A DNA stretch of 21,924 bases from a virus: the IMG/VR virus record IMGVR_UViG_3300048925_000228, positions 1 through 21,924 of that record; one strand, written 5' to 3'. The notes beneath the pieces are model-generated. The model was given only the letters and a program-made list of their open reading frames with translations. It was not told the origin of the DNA and did no database searches. Made by a program: the position numbers and the translations under genes. Positions 5,583 through 17,907 of the stretch are shown piece after piece (the first letter of the stretch is position 1; each line of letters starts with the position of its first letter).

Positions 5583-6083
5583 ATGGATCTGTACTCGTTG
5601 CAAATCGTCACAGTTGGAGCTGAAGCCGGAAATGCCCAAGCAACCTGGCTGCAATACCTAACCGCACTGTTGACCCCATTAGTCGCTGCTTTGGGTATTT
5701 GGATTGCGTTCAATCAGTGGAAAACTGCTCGAATGAAGCTGAAGCTCGATTTGTTCGATAAGCGATTGGCTGTCTATGAGGTGGTTCAGACCGCTGTTAG
5801 GCGAGCGGTTGTCCAAAAGCATTTCTCAGAAGATATGCTTGCTGAATATGTCCAGGGAATCGCTGGGGCTCGGTGGTTGTATGACCGGGAAATGAAGATG
5901 GCGTTATTCGACTTGTTCGAGTTGCTCTGTCGTATTCAACCCTACTGCGAGCTGCCAGACGACGCGTCAGAAGAGGAGCAAGGCATTCTCCTATCTAGAG
6001 AGTCAGAAGCAATGGAAAAGATCGAAGAGCAGTGGGCAGCTTTAGATGCGAGATTTGCTCCCTTTCTTACTCTCGGACACTGA
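5583..6083 (+). CDS. Membrane-anchored cargo (moron) protein of unknown function
   Basis: This is a 166-aa protein with one hydrophobic helix at about residues 23-43 (starting WLQYLTALL). A basic segment and the phrase KLDLFDKRLAVYE follow, then a long charged helical domain predicted to be cytoplasmic by the positive-inside rule. Small proteins with this helix plus 'LFDKR..VYE' layout occur widely in bacterial accessory DNA and have no known function to my knowledge. There is no Mu counterpart. The gene sits between G and protease I, has its own spacers on both sides, and is more AT-rich than its neighbours. GGATG lies about 7 nt before the ATG. Superinfection exclusion or another lysogen-protective role is an inference. 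Confidence 0.8.
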   Translation: MDLYSLQIVTVGAEAGNAQATWLQYLTALLTPLVAALGIWIAFNQWKTARMKLKLDLFDKRLAVYEVVQTAVRRAVVQKHFSEDMLAEYVQGIAGARWLYDREMKMALFDLFELLCRIQPYCELPDDASEEEQGILLSRESEAMEKIEEQWAALDARFAPFLTLGH

Positions 6084-9110: not shown

Positions 9111-9661
9111 TGCTCGGGCCGCTAGAGGACGCGATTCTGGCTCGGCTGAAAGAGCTTCAAAAAGCCGTTCCACGTTTGCGCCTGGGCACCTACGGCGGAG
9201 AGCTGAGTGATCCGGATCTGCTCGTCACCCTGATATCCGGTGGCCCGTCGATCCTTATCACCACTCCCAAGATCGGCTTTAAGCAGAGATCAAATCGGCA
9301 CTACACCGCTGAGCTTGTATTTCGGCTGGTCATCTCCGCCGGGAATGAACGGCGGCTGCTCCCCAAGGGCGGCGATCCAGGAAGCTACTGGCTGTGGGAG
9401 ACCTGTCTCTCACTGCTGACCAACTGGCAGCACAAGGATGGTGGCTCGATGGTTCGACCTACCGAGTTCGCCAACCTGGTCAACGGCAAGTTTCAAACTC
9501 AGCACCTTTCGGTGCTGGGGCAATCATTCGCGCTTTCCCTTGATTGGGCTGTTCCGGAGCCAGATTGGCCGGAGCTGGAGCGTATCGCTATCGAGTACCA
9601 CGTACCGGCAAGTGATGCCGATGCGGTGGCCAACGACAACATCAAATTAAGGGACGCGTGA
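9110..9661 (+). CDS. DUF1834 protein (Mu gp37-like, probable tail terminator)
   Basis: This 183-aa member of the gp37 family has the opening LEDAILARLKEL. A beta-rich core follows (PSILITTPKIG, then YTAELVFRLVISAGNERRLL) and a C-terminal strand region (SFALSLDWAVPEPD). By position and family it probably caps the tail at the neck. The start is the ATG at 9110 overlapping the preceding stop (TGATG); GTG 9107 is the in-frame alternative. Its stop overlaps the next start in the same way, indicating coupled translation. Confidence 0.85.
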   Translation: MLGPLEDAILARLKELQKAVPRLRLGTYGGELSDPDLLVTLISGGPSILITTPKIGFKQRSNRHYTAELVFRLVISAGNERRLLPKGGDPGSYWLWETCLSLLTNWQHKDGGSMVRPTEFANLVNGKFQTQHLSVLGQSFALSLDWAVPEPDWPELERIAIEYHVPASDADAVANDNIKLRDA

Positions 9662-9855
9662 TGCACGTTATCGCCGCACCTGGTCATCGGGTGCCGAAAG
9701 AAGATGATCCTTACACCTACATCGAATCGGCCCCGGCCGAGGCCGTGGAGGTGCCCGACACTTCGTATTACCGCCGCCGTATCGCCAATGACGAGCTGCT
9801 GCTCGCCAAGAAGCGTGGTGGTGCCAAAGAAACAGCTAAAGGAATCGAGAAATGA
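9661..9855 (+). CDS. DUF2635 small protein (Mu gp38-like)
   Basis: A 64-aa protein with the family pattern: a short strand, the GHRVPKEDD segment, then VEVPDTSYYRRRIANDELL near the middle and a Lys-rich end. It is always found immediately before the sheath gene in Mu-like phages. Its role is unknown. AGGGA at 9650-9654 lies 6 nt before the ATG. It overlaps the neighbouring genes at both ends. Confidence 0.85.
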   Translation: MHVIAAPGHRVPKEDDPYTYIESAPAEAVEVPDTSYYRRRIANDELLLAKKRGGAKETAKGIEK

Positions 9856-10949
9856 TCGCCTTCGACACCATCCCGGCATCTATCCGAAAGCCTGGTGCCT
9901 ACTTCGAGTTCAACACGTCTTTGGCCGTGCGGAACCTGCCGACCAACAAACAGAGCATTTGCCTGATCGTGCCGCTGGGCGTCGATCCGGAACTGGCGGC
10001 ACATATACCGACGCCTGTTTACAGCGCGGACGAGGCCAGGAGCTTGACCAATAGTGCCGTTGCCGAAGAAATGGTTGCAGCGGTCATCAAATCGTATCGC
10101 TATGCGTCTCTGTCCATCGTAGGGGTTGTTGTCGAGGGTGACGCAGAGCCGAATATCGCAGCTGCGCTGGATGCAACTGCTGCGGGCAAGTTCACTATCC
10201 TGGTGCCAGCGTGGTACAGCCAAACGGCAATGACCGCGCTTCGAACGCACATCCAGACCTACACCGACTCCATCGAGCAGCAAAGCATTATCGGTGTGGG
10301 CGCACTGACCACCACGCTGTCTGCTGCGACCACACTGGCTGGTTCGCTCAACTCCGGCGCGATCAGTCTGGCTGTTCTGCCCGGTACTGCATCCAGTGCG
10401 CGCCAGGTCGCATGCGCTTACGCAGCAAAGATTGCCTCCGAGGAAGATCCGGCGCGCCCGCTAAATACACTGGAACTGAACGGCATCCAGATTCCGCCAA
10501 TCACCAAGCGCCTCGGCCGGACTGAGCAAGAAACCGCGTTGGCCAACGGCGTCACACCGCTGGAAGTTGGTCCGGGTGATGTGGTGCAGATTGTCCGTGC
10601 GGTCTCGACCTATACCAAAGCGGCGTCCGGAGCGACGGATGTTTCGCTACTCGACCTGACCACCATGCGCTCTCTGTATTTCATCCGTGAAGCGTGCCGT
10701 GAGCGCGTCCGCCTGCGCTTCCCGCGCTCGAAACTATCGAACAAGACGCCTGCCGCTGTGCGGGGCGAACTGCTCGATGTCCTGAAGAAGTTGGAAGAAC
10801 TGGAGATTGTTGAGGAGGTTGACGCCAATGCGGATGGCCTGATCGTTGAGCGCTCGCTCCAGGACGTCAATCGTTTGAATGCGGCGATTCCCGCCGATGT
10901 CGTCAACGGCCTGCATGTGTTCGCCGGCCGAATTGATCTGCTTTTGTAA
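9852..10949 (+). CDS. Tail sheath protein (Mu L-like, gp39)
   Basis: The contractile sheath polymerises around the tube and drives DNA injection. The 365-aa protein begins IAFDTIPASIRKPGAYFEFN, the typical sheath N-terminus that links neighbouring subunits. It carries the core block TKRLGRTEQETALANGVTPL and ends in a C-terminal arm (NGLHVFAGRIDLLL). It is shorter than Mu L (about 495 aa), so the variable surface domain is probably reduced. The ATG overlaps the preceding stop (ATGA), and AAAGGA lies about 9 nt upstream. Confidence 0.92.
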   Translation: MIAFDTIPASIRKPGAYFEFNTSLAVRNLPTNKQSICLIVPLGVDPELAAHIPTPVYSADEARSLTNSAVAEEMVAAVIKSYRYASLSIVGVVVEGDAEPNIAAALDATAAGKFTILVPAWYSQTAMTALRTHIQTYTDSIEQQSIIGVGALTTTLSAATTLAGSLNSGAISLAVLPGTASSARQVACAYAAKIASEEDPARPLNTLELNGIQIPPITKRLGRTEQETALANGVTPLEVGPGDVVQIVRAVSTYTKAASGATDVSLLDLTTMRSLYFIREACRERVRLRFPRSKLSNKTPAAVRGELLDVLKKLEELEIVEEVDANADGLIVERSLQDVNRLNAAIPADVVNGLHVFAGRIDLLL

Positions 10950-10961
10950 GGGGTGACTTAG

Positions 10962-11333
10962 ATGTCTGATAACTATGTGGGGCAGATCGTACTGGAGATC
11001 AACGGCACCGATTACGAGGTGGCCAGCGTTGAGCCAAGCCTCAAAACGGGTCGCAAGGTCGTCAAGACAATGAATCGTACCGGCCGCGCAACGGGCACAG
11101 CCAAGGGGATCGAAGAACACGAGTTGAAAATCTCTGTCCCGATTCCGAAGTCAGGCGAACCCGATTGGCGGGCACTGATGGATGCCAAGTTGACCATCTA
11201 TCCGCAGGACGGCGGCAGCAAGCGTCAGACTTGGACAGGGTGTTCGCTGATGGAGATGGGCAGCAAGTACCAGGTTGAAGGCGAAGCAACCCGCGACCTG
11301 ACCATTGCAGCCCTCAACTACTACACGGAATAA
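10962..11333 (+). CDS. Tail tube protein (Mu M-like, gp40)
   Basis: This protein forms the inner tail tube through which DNA passes. The 123-aa sequence shows the family features GQIVLEINGTDYEVASVEP at the start, a central RATGTAKGIEEHELKISVPIP strand pair, and WTGCSLMEMG near the end. AGGGGTGA lies about 8 nt before the ATG. It sits in the normal place between sheath and tail chaperone genes. Confidence 0.92.
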   Translation: MSDNYVGQIVLEINGTDYEVASVEPSLKTGRKVVKTMNRTGRATGTAKGIEEHELKISVPIPKSGEPDWRALMDAKLTIYPQDGGSKRQTWTGCSLMEMGSKYQVEGEATRDLTIAALNYYTE

Positions 11334-11336
11334 ATC

Positions 11337-11723
11337 ATGACCGAGCAAACCAACAAGCAATGGGAAGGCCTGACCATCGGCGGTGAATTGCAAATCGGCG
11401 TGTATTACGCCGGTACGCGTCACAAGTCGTTCACGCTACGCACACCCGTCACCGGAGATCTGATCGGTGCACAGGAACTCTTTCCCCATGGCCCAATGCA
11501 ACTTATCACCGTGGACGTCTATCGCCGTCAGCTCCTTTCCCTGGGCGATATTCCAGCCGATGCGCTGACTACGGATCTGCTGCGTGATGCGCTGACCGAA
11601 AGCGATCTGGGCCTGATCGCCGACGCGGATGCAGCGCTGGAAAAAAAGCTTATGCCGCCGAGCGCGGCATCACCGACTGGCGACGCATTGAGCATGGACT
11701 TGTCCGAGCCGGTTACCGCTTAG
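11337..11723 (+). CDS. Tail assembly chaperone, unshifted product (Mu gp41-like)
   Basis: This is the short form of the chaperone pair that binds the tape measure protein during tail assembly. The 128-aa zero-frame product starts with a beta-rich segment (EGLTIGGELQIGVYY) followed by helices (TTDLLRDALTESDLGLIADA). Codons GAA AAA AAG at 11640-11648 contain a canonical A AAA AAG slippery heptamer. Part of the ribosomes should shift back one base there and make a longer product. The zero-frame end (about 24 residues after the slip site) is Ser/Pro/Thr-rich and looks unstructured, as expected for an overlap region. Confidence 0.9.
   Translation: MTEQTNKQWEGLTIGGELQIGVYYAGTRHKSFTLRTPVTGDLIGAQELFPHGPMQLITVDVYRRQLLSLGDIPADALTTDLLRDALTESDLGLIADADAALEKKLMPPSAASPTGDALSMDLSEPVTA
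11642..11668 (+). promoter_or_regulatory. Programmed -1 ribosomal frameshift signal
   Basis: The heptamer A AAA AAG occupies 11642-11648 in the right phase for the chaperone reading frame. Five bases later a GCCGC/GCGGC stem (11654-11658 with 11664-11668, 5-nt loop) can act as a stimulator. This motif is the most efficient known -1 slippery site in E. coli. The frame entered is open to 11848. Confidence 0.85.
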
Positions 11724-11848
11724 ACGAAATCCGGCAGATGACTCGGCCTGAAATTGATGCCCGTATTGATTTGATAGTGGGCAAGCCGACGACTACGACG
11801 CGGTACGTCAGTAAACGACAACGTAAAAAGTTGCCTCCCCCCAAGTAA
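11648..11848 (+). CDS. Frameshift extension of the tail assembly chaperone
   Basis: This frame has no credible start of its own. It is read after a -1 slip at 11642-11648, joining 104 residues of the chaperone to 66 more for a fusion of about 170 aa. The added part contains a helical domain (WRRIEHGLVRAGYRLDEIRQ, then RPEIDARIDLIV) and a very basic tail ending KRQRKKLPPPK. It fills what would otherwise be a 177-bp gap between the chaperone and tape measure genes. This is the gpG-T type arrangement known in lambda and reported as a frameshift in P2 and Mu. The shift here is inferred from sequence. Confidence 0.82.
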   Translation, partial: AYAAERGITDWRRIEHGLVRAGYRLDEIRQMTRPEIDARIDLIVGKPTTTTRYVSKRQRKKLPPPK

Positions 11849-11851
11849 TAC

Positions 11852-11877
11852 AAGGCTCGATATCGGGCCTTTCTTGT
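11852..11877 (+). terminator. Terminator-like hairpin before the tape measure gene
   Basis: AAGGCTCGAT (11852-11861) pairs with ATCGGGCCTT (11862-11871) with one G-U pair, giving a GC-rich stem. A T-rich run TTTCTTGT follows. It starts 4 nt after the frameshift-product stop and lies 27 nt before the tape measure start codon. It could be an attenuator that lowers tape measure expression relative to the tube and chaperone genes, or a remnant. Confidence 0.55.
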
Positions 11878-11903
11878 ATCTGTAAGACGCTCAGGAGTGT
11901 TTG

Positions 11904-14132
11904 ATGAGTTCAGATCTGCGCGTTGCGCTTCGCTTTCAAGCCCATTCGGGAAACAGTCGCCGTGAGATCGAGCAGATCAACCGCGACCTGCGCAAGGCTG
12001 GTAAGGAAGGCGCGAAGTCCCTCGCCGACGAAAGTTGGAAGGCTGGAACGGCCATTACCAAAGTCGGCCAAGCTGGCGCAACGAGTTACCAGGTCATCCG
12101 CAATTCGATGCGTGAAACCGCTAAAGCAGGTTCGCAAACCCGTCTTGAGGTCAGCAAAACCAAAGAAGAACTGAAGAAAATGGCCGACGCCGGTCGTAAG
12201 GCTGCGCGGGACATCAAGGCCAACGCTACAAGCGCGGATCGTCAAGGCGTCCAGCCACTGCGCCAGAGCGTCGAACGGACAGAGTCTGCTTTCCGCCGTC
12301 TGGCACAGAACGGCGGCCGAAATCTGCTTGCACTCAAGACCGTCGCCGCTGGTGTCCGCCAGGAATTCGACCGTATTAAGTCCTTGGGCACTAGCGCCCA
12401 AGGGCAGTTAGCCGGGTTGGGCGTTGGTGTAGGTGTCGTGGCAGGCTTGAGCGGAAGTGCTCGCCTGGATCGTCAGTTGATCCGTACCAAGCAAACCGCT
12501 GATATGTCTCCAGCCGAGAAAGACGACTGGAAGAAAGAAGGGTTCAGGATTGCCAAGGATTACGGGTTAAGTCGCGAGAGTGTCGACAGCGGATTCAACA
12601 CCCTGATTGCTTCCGGCGTTAAATACGATCCGGCCAAAAAGACAGCCGACGCCATCGGTCAAGCCTCAACTGTTACCGGTGCGGATTCGGCCGTTCTGGG
12701 TAAAGCTGTAGTCGCGGCCGCCAGCGCCTTCAACATCGATTTGAACGAGGGTAACGCAGCGCTTGAGCTGTTGCAGAAGATGACCGTTGCCGGTCGTCTG
12801 GGAAATGCGGAGCTAGAAAACCTTTCTGACCTGTTTCCGAAAATCGGTGGTGTTGCTTCCGCTGCCGGTATGTCCATAGAGCAAGCTCTGGCTTTTACCG
12901 AAGCTCTTTCAAAAGTTGAGTTACAACCTGATCGCCTTGGAACACTGGCCGAATCAACGTTACGTGTGTTCAGTAATAAGCAATACCGCGATCAGATTAC
13001 GAAATCGAGCGGTGTAGGTTTCTTTAATAAAGATGGCAGTTCTAAAAATCCTGTCGCTGTTTTCGAAGAGTTGAAACGAAAGTACAACGCTATGAAAACC
13101 GATGCTGAGCGAGCCAAGTTTATGGGCATCGTTTTTAAGGGTATGGATCAGGACACCGTACGCGGCATGCGCAGCATGTTGACCGGTGATCGGCTGGACG
13201 ACTTCCGTAACGGCACTGCCGAGCTTAAGAAGGCAGAGCCGGTTTTTACTAATGACCTGAAAGAAAACACTCAAAGTGCAAGCGGCACAGCTGCACGAAT
13301 GAAGGCAACTTTGGGCGAAGCCATTGACCGGATGGCAACACCAATCAATAAAAGCTTTGCCGATATGGGCAGTTATCTGCTCGATGATCTGAACCTGTCC
13401 GGTGAGCAAATGCTATTGGGTGGTGCCGCCCTGGGCGTCGGTGGCTATTACGCGGGCCGTGGTGCCAAAGCGGGCGCAGGGGCTTTGCTGAATAAGGTAA
13501 TGGGTGGCCCTGAAACACTGAAGAACATTGCTGTGGGCAAAGTTCTGGAAGAAGCAACAGGCGTAACTTCAGTGTTCGTAACCAATTGGCCCAGCAACAT
13601 GCAATCCGGTGCAGGAATACCAGATTTGCCAGATGGTTCCTCAAAACCCGGCAAGGGCAAGCCTGGCGGCTTTCTCGCGCCCTGGCTTGGACCTGTCGCA
13701 CTTGCGGCAAGTGCCACACAACTGGCCGGAGCCAGCTCTAGCACCGACGAAGGTCGGTTGAGGGATGCCCAGCGGAGCGTGCTCCTGGACGACGGCCAGC
13801 GTACCTACCAAACCGCTTTCTACCGCAACCGAATCGACCTTGCAGCCAATAACCCAGACCAGTCCTCCGATTGGCTGTCAGCCCAAGCCCAGCGGCTGGC
13901 ACATCAGCAAACGGGTATGACGGCGGCGGGTCTGCCGATTGACGGTGCGAACCAATGGGCAGCCGGTATTGCGAATCGAGCGGTTGCCGCTGGTACAGAT
14001 CCTTCGGCTGCTGAAGCACGATTGCAAAAGCTGGTGGCTCAACCATTGGTCATCGATCTGCGCTTGGACTCTCACATGCTCCAGGCAGAGCTAGAACGCA
14101 GAACTGACGTTCAAATGAGGCGCGGACAATGA
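11904..14132 (+). CDS. Tape measure protein (Mu gp42-like)
   Basis: This 742-aa protein sets tail length and is ejected with DNA. The N-terminal ~160 residues are charged and coiled-coil rich (RREIEQINRDLRKAGKE). A Gly/Val-rich hydrophobic segment follows at about 169-184, then the conserved TP901-type core containing SGVKYDPAKKTADAIGQAS and LSDLFPKIGGVASAAGMS. A second hydrophobic stretch lies near 503-525 (MLLGGAALGVGGYYAGRG). CAGGAG lies about 6 nt before the ATG at 11904; the upstream TTG at 11901 is rejected. By the usual scaling of about 0.15 nm per residue the tail would be roughly 110 nm. The end overlaps the next start (ATGA). Confidence 0.92.
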   Translation: MSSDLRVALRFQAHSGNSRREIEQINRDLRKAGKEGAKSLADESWKAGTAITKVGQAGATSYQVIRNSMRETAKAGSQTRLEVSKTKEELKKMADAGRKAARDIKANATSADRQGVQPLRQSVERTESAFRRLAQNGGRNLLALKTVAAGVRQEFDRIKSLGTSAQGQLAGLGVGVGVVAGLSGSARLDRQLIRTKQTADMSPAEKDDWKKEGFRIAKDYGLSRESVDSGFNTLIASGVKYDPAKKTADAIGQASTVTGADSAVLGKAVVAAASAFNIDLNEGNAALELLQKMTVAGRLGNAELENLSDLFPKIGGVASAAGMSIEQALAFTEALSKVELQPDRLGTLAESTLRVFSNKQYRDQITKSSGVGFFNKDGSSKNPVAVFEELKRKYNAMKTDAERAKFMGIVFKGMDQDTVRGMRSMLTGDRLDDFRNGTAELKKAEPVFTNDLKENTQSASGTAARMKATLGEAIDRMATPINKSFADMGSYLLDDLNLSGEQMLLGGAALGVGGYYAGRGAKAGAGALLNKVMGGPETLKNIAVGKVLEEATGVTSVFVTNWPSNMQSGAGIPDLPDGSSKPGKGKPGGFLAPWLGPVALAASATQLAGASSSTDEGRLRDAQRSVLLDDGQRTYQTAFYRNRIDLAANNPDQSSDWLSAQAQRLAHQQTGMTAAGLPIDGANQWAAGIANRAVAAGTDPSAAEARLQKLVAQPLVIDLRLDSHMLQAELERRTDVQMRRGQ

Positions 14133-16565: not shown

Positions 16566-17128
16566 TGACTCGCAATCTGGCCGCGCTGATGCGTGAGCAG
16601 GCCGAACGCGCTGCAAGAGGTGTTCGCCAAGCCTTCCGAGCTGTTGCAGCACGGAACACCCATGGCAAGTTAATCGGCGTACAGATGCAAGGGCTTGCGG
16701 GCGAGACGGTCGACGGGGAGCAGTTCCAAAACTACGGGTTCAGTTCCGCGCCGTTGCCTGGTGCGGAATACATCGTTATCCCGGTCGGTGGAAACAGTAA
16801 GCACTCAGTCGTTGTGGCCAGCGAAGACGGCCGCTACCGATTGCAGCTTCAGGACGGTGAAGTGTCGCTGTACACCGACGAAGGCGATTACGTGCATATG
16901 AAGCGTGGTCGGATGATTGAGGTTGTGACTGATGACCTGGTGTTCAAGGTGAAGAACAAGGTTCGCTTCGAAACGCCGTTGGTGGAGATATCCGGAAATG
17001 AACACGTAGAGGGAAACATCAAGGCAGATGGGGAAATTGCAGACCACAAACGCACTATGAAGCAAGACAGGGATATTTATAACGCCCACGACCACGGGGG
17101 AGGTGCGAAGCCATCGCCAATGCAATGA
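16565..17128 (+). CDS. Baseplate spike protein (Mu gp45-like)
   Basis: This is the membrane-piercing central spike, trimeric like P2 gpV. The N-terminal half is an OB-like domain (VDGEQFQNYGFSSAPLPGAE, then HSVVVASEDGRYRLQLQDGE). The C-terminal half has short beta-helix repeats (FKVKNKVRFETPLVEISGNE, then NIKADGEIADHK). It ends YNAHDHGGGAKPSPMQ. The HDH triplet matches the His-X-His that binds a metal ion at the tip in P2 and Mu spikes. At 187 aa it is a standard length. The ATG at 16565 overlaps the hub stop, with AGGGGG upstream. Confidence 0.92.
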   Translation: MTRNLAALMREQAERAARGVRQAFRAVAARNTHGKLIGVQMQGLAGETVDGEQFQNYGFSSAPLPGAEYIVIPVGGNSKHSVVVASEDGRYRLQLQDGEVSLYTDEGDYVHMKRGRMIEVVTDDLVFKVKNKVRFETPLVEISGNEHVEGNIKADGEIADHKRTMKQDRDIYNAHDHGGGAKPSPMQ

Positions 17129-17187
17129 CTTTTATGGTACGTCTGCACTCTGAAAGCGAGCCTCTTACTGACAGGATGCAGACGAAT

Positions 17188-17907
17188 ATGGCTAAAAAGA
17201 TTGTTGTTCTTGTGCGCTTTTTTAAGACGAAAAACCATCGAGACGCGTTCGTACGTGGTGACTTGTATATGAATCGGCTGAGGTTTTTTAAGGCTTACGA
17301 AGAGCAAGATTCGTGCAACATAGGAGATAGACACGAAGGTACGTCGGGATGGTATCAGCCCGATCAAATTAAAGTGACCATTCAAGATCCTTACACTGGC
17401 GAGGATCATGTAATAAAAGATTTTGCTGGCCCAGTCTTGATAGGGCTCCATCGGCACAACGACTATCACGTGTACTGTATGTCGGCCGTGTATGGCGACG
17501 ACGAGGCTCAGTTTGAGTCGTTCGAGGAGATGAGGGCCAGCATGATGCTCGACGTTGCCAGGGGGGATCTGGGGGACTACTGCACGATTGTGGAAGCGAA
17601 GCCTTTCATCGAGCGTCTGGACAAAACCTTGAGAGCTGAAGTGGATTCTGGAAATGTCGTTGGGCGAGGCCTAGTGGAGTACTTCGACCCAGATACCTTC
17701 AGTGGCTCTTTCGATGAAGATCAGGCGATTATGAGGAAAAAGAACTGTTTTGCCCATCAAAAGGAATACAGGGTTTACGTCTATGATGGATCTAAGGGAG
17801 ATGACGCTAGAACCATAAATATTGGAGATATTTCCGACATTGCCTTCAGCTGCGATAAAAAGGACTTCGAAAAGCACTTTCAAATCACTCAGAAAAATCC
17901 AGATTAG
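17188..17907 (+). CDS. Cargo (moron) protein of unknown function
   Basis: This is a soluble protein of about 239 aa with no Mu counterpart, inserted between spike gp45 and gp46. It begins MAKKIVVLVRFFKTKNHRDA and continues with GDLYMNRLRFFKAYEE and RHEGTSGWYQPDQI. It ends with KEYRVYVYDGSKGDD and a short IGDISDIAF strand. I recall similar proteins of this layout scattered in bacterial accessory DNA, without known function. It is more AT-rich than the flanking structural genes, which suggests separate acquisition. The frame extends up to an ATG at 17125 overlapping the spike stop (ATGA), and to ATGs at 17134 and 17176. I prefer 17188 because the conserved-looking sequence starts there, but AGGA is 11 nt away. 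Confidence 0.78.
   Translation: MAKKIVVLVRFFKTKNHRDAFVRGDLYMNRLRFFKAYEEQDSCNIGDRHEGTSGWYQPDQIKVTIQDPYTGEDHVIKDFAGPVLIGLHRHNDYHVYCMSAVYGDDEAQFESFEEMRASMMLDVARGDLGDYCTIVEAKPFIERLDKTLRAEVDSGNVVGRGLVEYFDPDTFSGSFDEDQAIMRKKNCFAHQKEYRVYVYDGSKGDDARTINIGDISDIAFSCDKKDFEKHFQITQKNPD

Follow-up and report, generated by a model that had tools for sequence, protein, structure and literature searches.

A predicted programmed -1 ribosomal frameshift in the tail assembly chaperone gene of a Mu-like phage and its relatives

Frameshifting in tail assembly chaperone genes is described as a general trait of tailed phages (Xu et al. 2004, as cited in PMC5009743). The locus studied here lies in the viral record IMGVR_UViG_3300048925_000228, of which the 21,924 nucleotides analyzed (positions 1 to 21,924) are referred to as the window. 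An open -1 frame runs on from its putative chaperone gene towards the tape measure gene, raising the question of whether the two frames are read as one product and, if so, how ribosomes pass from one to the other. The evidence set out below leaves little doubt that the locus is a programmed -1 ribosomal frameshift site of the standard kind found in phage tail assembly chaperone genes.

Genomic context of the chaperone gene

The window covers the half of a Mu-like phage devoted to morphogenesis, with genes for a terminase, a Mu-type portal, a gpG-like protein, a Mu-like protease, a gpT-type capsid, gp36 and gp37, together with sheath, tube, chaperone, tape measure, hub and baseplate genes. Family matches confirmed a Mu-like module in Mu order (Portal_Mu, E value, 2e-104; Mu-like_Pro, E value, 5e-64; Mu-like_gpT, E value, 9e-126), and Gp36, Gp37, Phage_tail_S and sheath matches were also identified. 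The order of tail tube, chaperone and tape measure genes is that of the lambda G/GT type (Table 1). When compared with PHROGs, the chaperone ORF matched PHROG 508, 'tail assembly chaperone' (E value, 6.2e-28), and the Pfam family Gp41_Mu gave a weak, sub-threshold match (E value, 0.0037).

Several other genes of the module were recorded. The tail sheath gene (window 9852-10949) encodes a product of only 365 aa, and the similar sheaths of Klebsiella ST405, SuMu and Mannheimia 3927AP2 gave a two-piece alignment over about 1400 nt; a domain present in those sheaths seems to be missing from that of the window. A 260-aa gene (17125-17907) separates the gp45-like from the gp46-like baseplate gene; it matched PHROG 26561 (unknown function; E value, 1.6e-31), had no Pfam or PADLOC match and resembles an inserted cargo gene within the baseplate operon. 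Searches of Pfam, PADLOC and PHROGs gave no match for a 166-aa ORF (5583-6083) that lies between the gpG-like and protease genes.

Table 1. Coordinates of the features discussed (window positions, except for the deposited-phage loci)
Feature	Position	Strand	Remarks
Tail tube gene	10962..11333	+	PHROG 185 tail tube, E value 9e-28
Tail assembly chaperone gene (Mu gp41/lambda G analogue)	11337..11723	+	PHROG 508; 128-aa 0-frame product; start ATG 11337, 0-frame stop 11721-11723
Slippery heptamer A AAA AAG	11642..11648	+	X XXY YYZ phase; codons 102-104 GAA AAA AAG at 11640-11648
-1 frame extension	11648..11848	+	66 codons plus stop TAA 11846-11848
Candidate stimulator hairpin	11652..11670	+	Folds; 7-bp stem, 5-nt loop, 3 nt past heptamer
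Tape measure gene	11904..14132	+	PHROG 973 tape measure, E value 5e-99; Pfam PhageMin_Tail, E value 3.5e-23
Deposited-phage loci with split annotation	L028 588-1096; L029 594-1174; L030 572-1158		

Slip site and predicted products

An in-phase slippery sequence is present upstream of the 0-frame stop of the chaperone gene. A preliminary description of this DNA had reported a heptamer in the correct phase, a -1 frame open for 66 codons and predicted products of 128 and about 170 aa, and the ORFs bear out each of these points. The extension begins AYAAERGITDWR, and 104 chaperone residues joined to its 66 codons give a predicted 170-aa fusion, analogous to lambda GT and P2 E+E', with EKKAYAAERGITDWR as the junction peptide. 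The extension had also been said to fill an otherwise empty gap; it occupies most, not all, of the 180 nt between the 0-frame stop and the tape-measure ATG.

Taken by itself, the heptamer is unremarkable. Two copies were observed in the window versus 2.7 expected, and synonymous codon shuffles gave an in-phase heptamer 0.19 times in the chaperone gene and 0.65 times in the window versus the one observed. It is conservation in relatives that lifts the site above chance.

Conservation of the slip site

Viral contigs were scanned for relatives with chaperone and extension as separate queries, and one Pseudomonas genome and faecal phage contigs were added; 76 distinct sequences, the window among them, cover the slip site. 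Among 25 genomes of one Pseudomonas genus, the search found nothing beyond the locus already known. The exact A AAA AAG was found in phase in 73 of the 76, and in relatives with the heptamer a -1 shift out of the chaperone frame leads into the extension. When a chaperone pattern was used for the lookup and the extension left unused, the extension was still found wherever the contig was long enough. The preliminary description had proposed an alignment of relatives as a check, in which a downstream frame conserved without the heptamer would speak against frameshifting; the alignment instead showed heptamer and extension conserved together, and for that reason the frameshift interpretation is strongly supported.

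Conservation extends to codon choice. All 73 sequences that keep the heptamer carry AAA at codon 103 and AAG at codon 104, with no synonymous change; at codon 102, 72 of the 73 encode Glu, always as GAA. Overall codon usage in these phages is 47% for GAA, 39% for AAA and 61% for AAG, and the remaining columns among the last 30 chaperone codons all vary, with synonymous entropies of 0.75 to 1.86 bits. In L083/L218 the site reads GGA AAA AAG, so that the Glu codon has gone and the run is of six A's, and the heptamer is retained.

Relatives without the exact heptamer

The three exceptions were L090, L071/L199 and L052/L242. L090 (IMGVR 3300036781_000839) has no A run and carries at the same place an in-phase G GGA AAA, close to the in-phase lambda heptamer G GGA AAG, and the -1 frame beyond the site carries its extension. 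The other two are metagenome contigs with six A's instead of seven, and the extension would therefore need a -2 or +1 shift. L199 has additional frame breaks in its capsid and tape-measure genes, and L213, from a neighbouring-numbered sample, has one in gp47; these breaks point to assembly indel errors. L242 (IMGVR 3300022658_000052; site 9437-9461, reverse strand; L052 1501-2076) has no other frame breaks in 12 kb. Overall, the six-A runs in L071/L199 and L052/L242 are probably sequence errors. That the slip site evolves between modes within one close Mu-like family, using -1 on A AAA AAG or G GGA AAA and, in L242, -2 (as in Mu) or +1, seems unlikely; if the L242 six-A site were real, it would show how an odd -2 site like that of Mu could arise by the loss of one base.

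Proposed mechanism

Most ribosomes would pass A AAA AAG in the 0 frame and terminate at 11723, yielding the 128-aa chaperone. In a minority, tRNA-Lys(UUU) would re-pair on AAA AAA after a slip of one base backwards, and translation as far as 11848 would yield the 170-aa fusion, the extra C-terminal domain of which would be the T-like part. A lysine tRNA set consisting only of UUU makes A AAA AAG slippery in E. coli. The Pseudomonas pseudonitroreducens genome that carries L021 has two tRNA-Lys genes, both UUU, and no tRNA-Lys CUU was identified among its 59 tRNA matches, all of which could be typed except two overlapping odd ones. If the analogy with lambda gpG and gpGT holds (PMC5009743), coating of the tape measure protein should fall to the short form and recruitment of tail tube subunits to the long form. 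As for efficiency in other systems, the GeneTack study gives 6-7% as measured for two HK97-like members (PMC3711429), and the P2 frameshift is reported to be 2-3 fold more efficient than that of lambda (PMC5009743).

A fusion could also be produced by transcriptional slippage, in which RNA polymerase adds an A at the run. Such slippage is known at poly-A runs longer than seven (PMC3711429), and the run has eight A's in SuMu and the Klebsiella phage, against seven in the window. Nevertheless, the run varies from six (L083, Mannheimia 3927AP2) to eight with the in-phase heptamer kept, and L090, with four A's only (G GGA AAA G), still retains the extension; the X XXY YYZ codon phase, which transcriptional slippage does not need, is preserved as well. 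Since the run ranges from four to eight A's across the family and its distant relatives and a valid in-phase heptamer is kept throughout, ribosomal slippage is favored, and we regard slippage by the polymerase as very improbable.

Selection on the extension and its mode of entry

A further reading is that the downstream frame is a small separate gene with its own start. Some records annotate the downstream ORF separately (for example, Klebsiella ST405 and SuMu), and a conserved ATG at codon 31 of the extension offers a candidate start. However, selection acts on the extension from before that codon. In the overlap with the chaperone gene, dN/dS was 0.40 in the -1 frame versus 1.20 in the 0 frame, and beyond the usual 0-frame stop it was 0.29 in the -1 frame versus 1.17 and 1.61 in the other frames; these are pairwise Nei-Gojobori averages and, with short-insertion loci not realigned, are approximate. 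Such values indicate purifying selection on the extension in the -1 frame only. Its first 30 residues are thus under selection in that frame, yet in 71 of 72 relatives no ATG, GTG or TTG occurs in the -1 frame before codon 31, and many relatives have a stop in this frame a few codons before the heptamer. As these residues are conserved and lack start codons, they are not made by ordinary re-initiation. An independent gene would, moreover, leave the synonymous invariance of the heptamer unexplained, and we consider it scarcely credible. Of the ways into the extension, slippage is the simplest that remains. The idea of an ordinary single gene split by a frame-breaking mutation or an assembly error, to which A-run indels (common errors) and the six-A run in two relatives might lend some color, is refuted by conservation: more than 70 distinct contigs share the same -1 relation, isolate genomes and P. 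pseudonitroreducens among them, and the 0 frame goes on for about 24 codons in most relatives.

The extension had no match in PHROGs or Pfam. An AlphaFold2 model of it (window 11648-11845) contained three helices with a pLDDT of 67, and a structural search with this model gave no significant match (best E value, 0.5; probability, 0.97), the best of the non-significant hits being a T4-type 'baseplate hub assembly catalyst' of Acinetobacter phage ZZ1. The structure model of the chaperone itself was poor (pLDDT 53).

Downstream hairpin

The preliminary description had placed a stimulator hairpin with a 5-bp stem 5 nt downstream of the heptamer. An inner 5-bp core does begin there (11654-11658 with 11664-11668) and is the conserved part; the full stem has 7 bp (11652-11658 with 11664-11670) and starts closer to the heptamer. 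The core is complete in 55 of 72 relatives and has four pairs in 12 more. Variation in the core is one-sided (G-C to G-U, C-G to U-G), with no compensatory, double-sided changes among the 72 relatives, and the folding energy of the hairpin in the window is no better than that of shuffles (z, -0.1 to -0.4). Because of these two results, the hairpin stands as a candidate whose stimulator role in frameshifting is plausible, which is less than had been proposed. The conserved A-A-E-R-G in GC-rich codons yields most of the hairpin for free. In a divergent group, GCUGCC pairs with GGCAGC in another register in place of this stem, and L021 has GAGC-GCAA-GCUC instead; such replaced stems hint that some hairpin may be kept. 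A search of Rfam with 11300-11950 gave no match.

Comparison with known systems

The arrangement resembles lambda G/G-T in having the chaperone gene between the tail tube and tape measure genes and an extension read as a fusion. Lambda differs in its heptamer, G GGA AAG, which lies near the very end of G, whereas here A AAA AAG is followed by a 24-codon 0-frame tail that overlaps the extension. P2 E/E+E', compared by description only, belongs to a contractile-tail phage and has the same two-product logic. E. coli dnaX has the same A AAA AAG heptamer and a downstream hairpin, but uses an additional upstream Shine-Dalgarno-like stimulator (PMC3711429); none was seen by eye upstream of the heptamer here.

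Mu gp41 (AF083977, Mu_41/Mu_56) occupies the homologous position in the Mu-like tail module and likewise gives a short and an extended product. In Mu, however, the shift is -2, annotated as verified, and gp41 has no in-phase X XXY YYZ heptamer. The extension was not in a Mu-type -2 (+1) frame in the window or in the relatives with the heptamer. From Mu, the preliminary description had taken a -1 site to be a notable variant in a Mu-like phage, a view that overstates the case, as -1 is the usual direction for tail chaperones and the -2 of Mu is exceptional (PMC4378225, PMC5009743). The same heptamer is found in phase at the same place in the Mu-like Haemophilus phage SuMu, Mannheimia phage vB_MhM_3927AP2 and Klebsiella phage ST405-OXA48phi1.1, where related extensions follow in the -1 frame; these phages are only 26-37% identical in the chaperone domain. 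These three heptamers and PMC4378225 rule out the use of Mu as evidence that -1 is unusual. The deposited genomes of the three phages have the two halves annotated as separate hypothetical proteins (Table 1).

Other heptamers occur among Mu-like phages. Bordetella PY223 has T TTT TTG ahead of a -1 frame, and a -1 frameshift is predicted in the tail genes (core ORFs 35/36) of the P. aeruginosa Mu-like siphophage PaMx73, which differs in its T TTT TTC heptamer and in its flexible, non-contractile tail (PMC4378225). The authors of the KS10 report found no slip site in their phage (PMC2628397). No earlier report of a slip site in the present chaperone family was found in the literature searched; Xu et al. 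2004, outside that search, may list details for FluMu.

Implications

The locus is a well-supported, previously unannotated instance of the known tail-chaperone frameshift, ordinary among tailed phages, and implies no new mechanism. At least 76 distinct Mu-like sequences can now be annotated correctly, with one gene and products of 128 and 170 aa, and some distant relatives of this family have been deposited with two hypothetical genes at this position. The result also favors -1 as the usual shift in Mu-like phages, from which the -2 shift of Mu departs.
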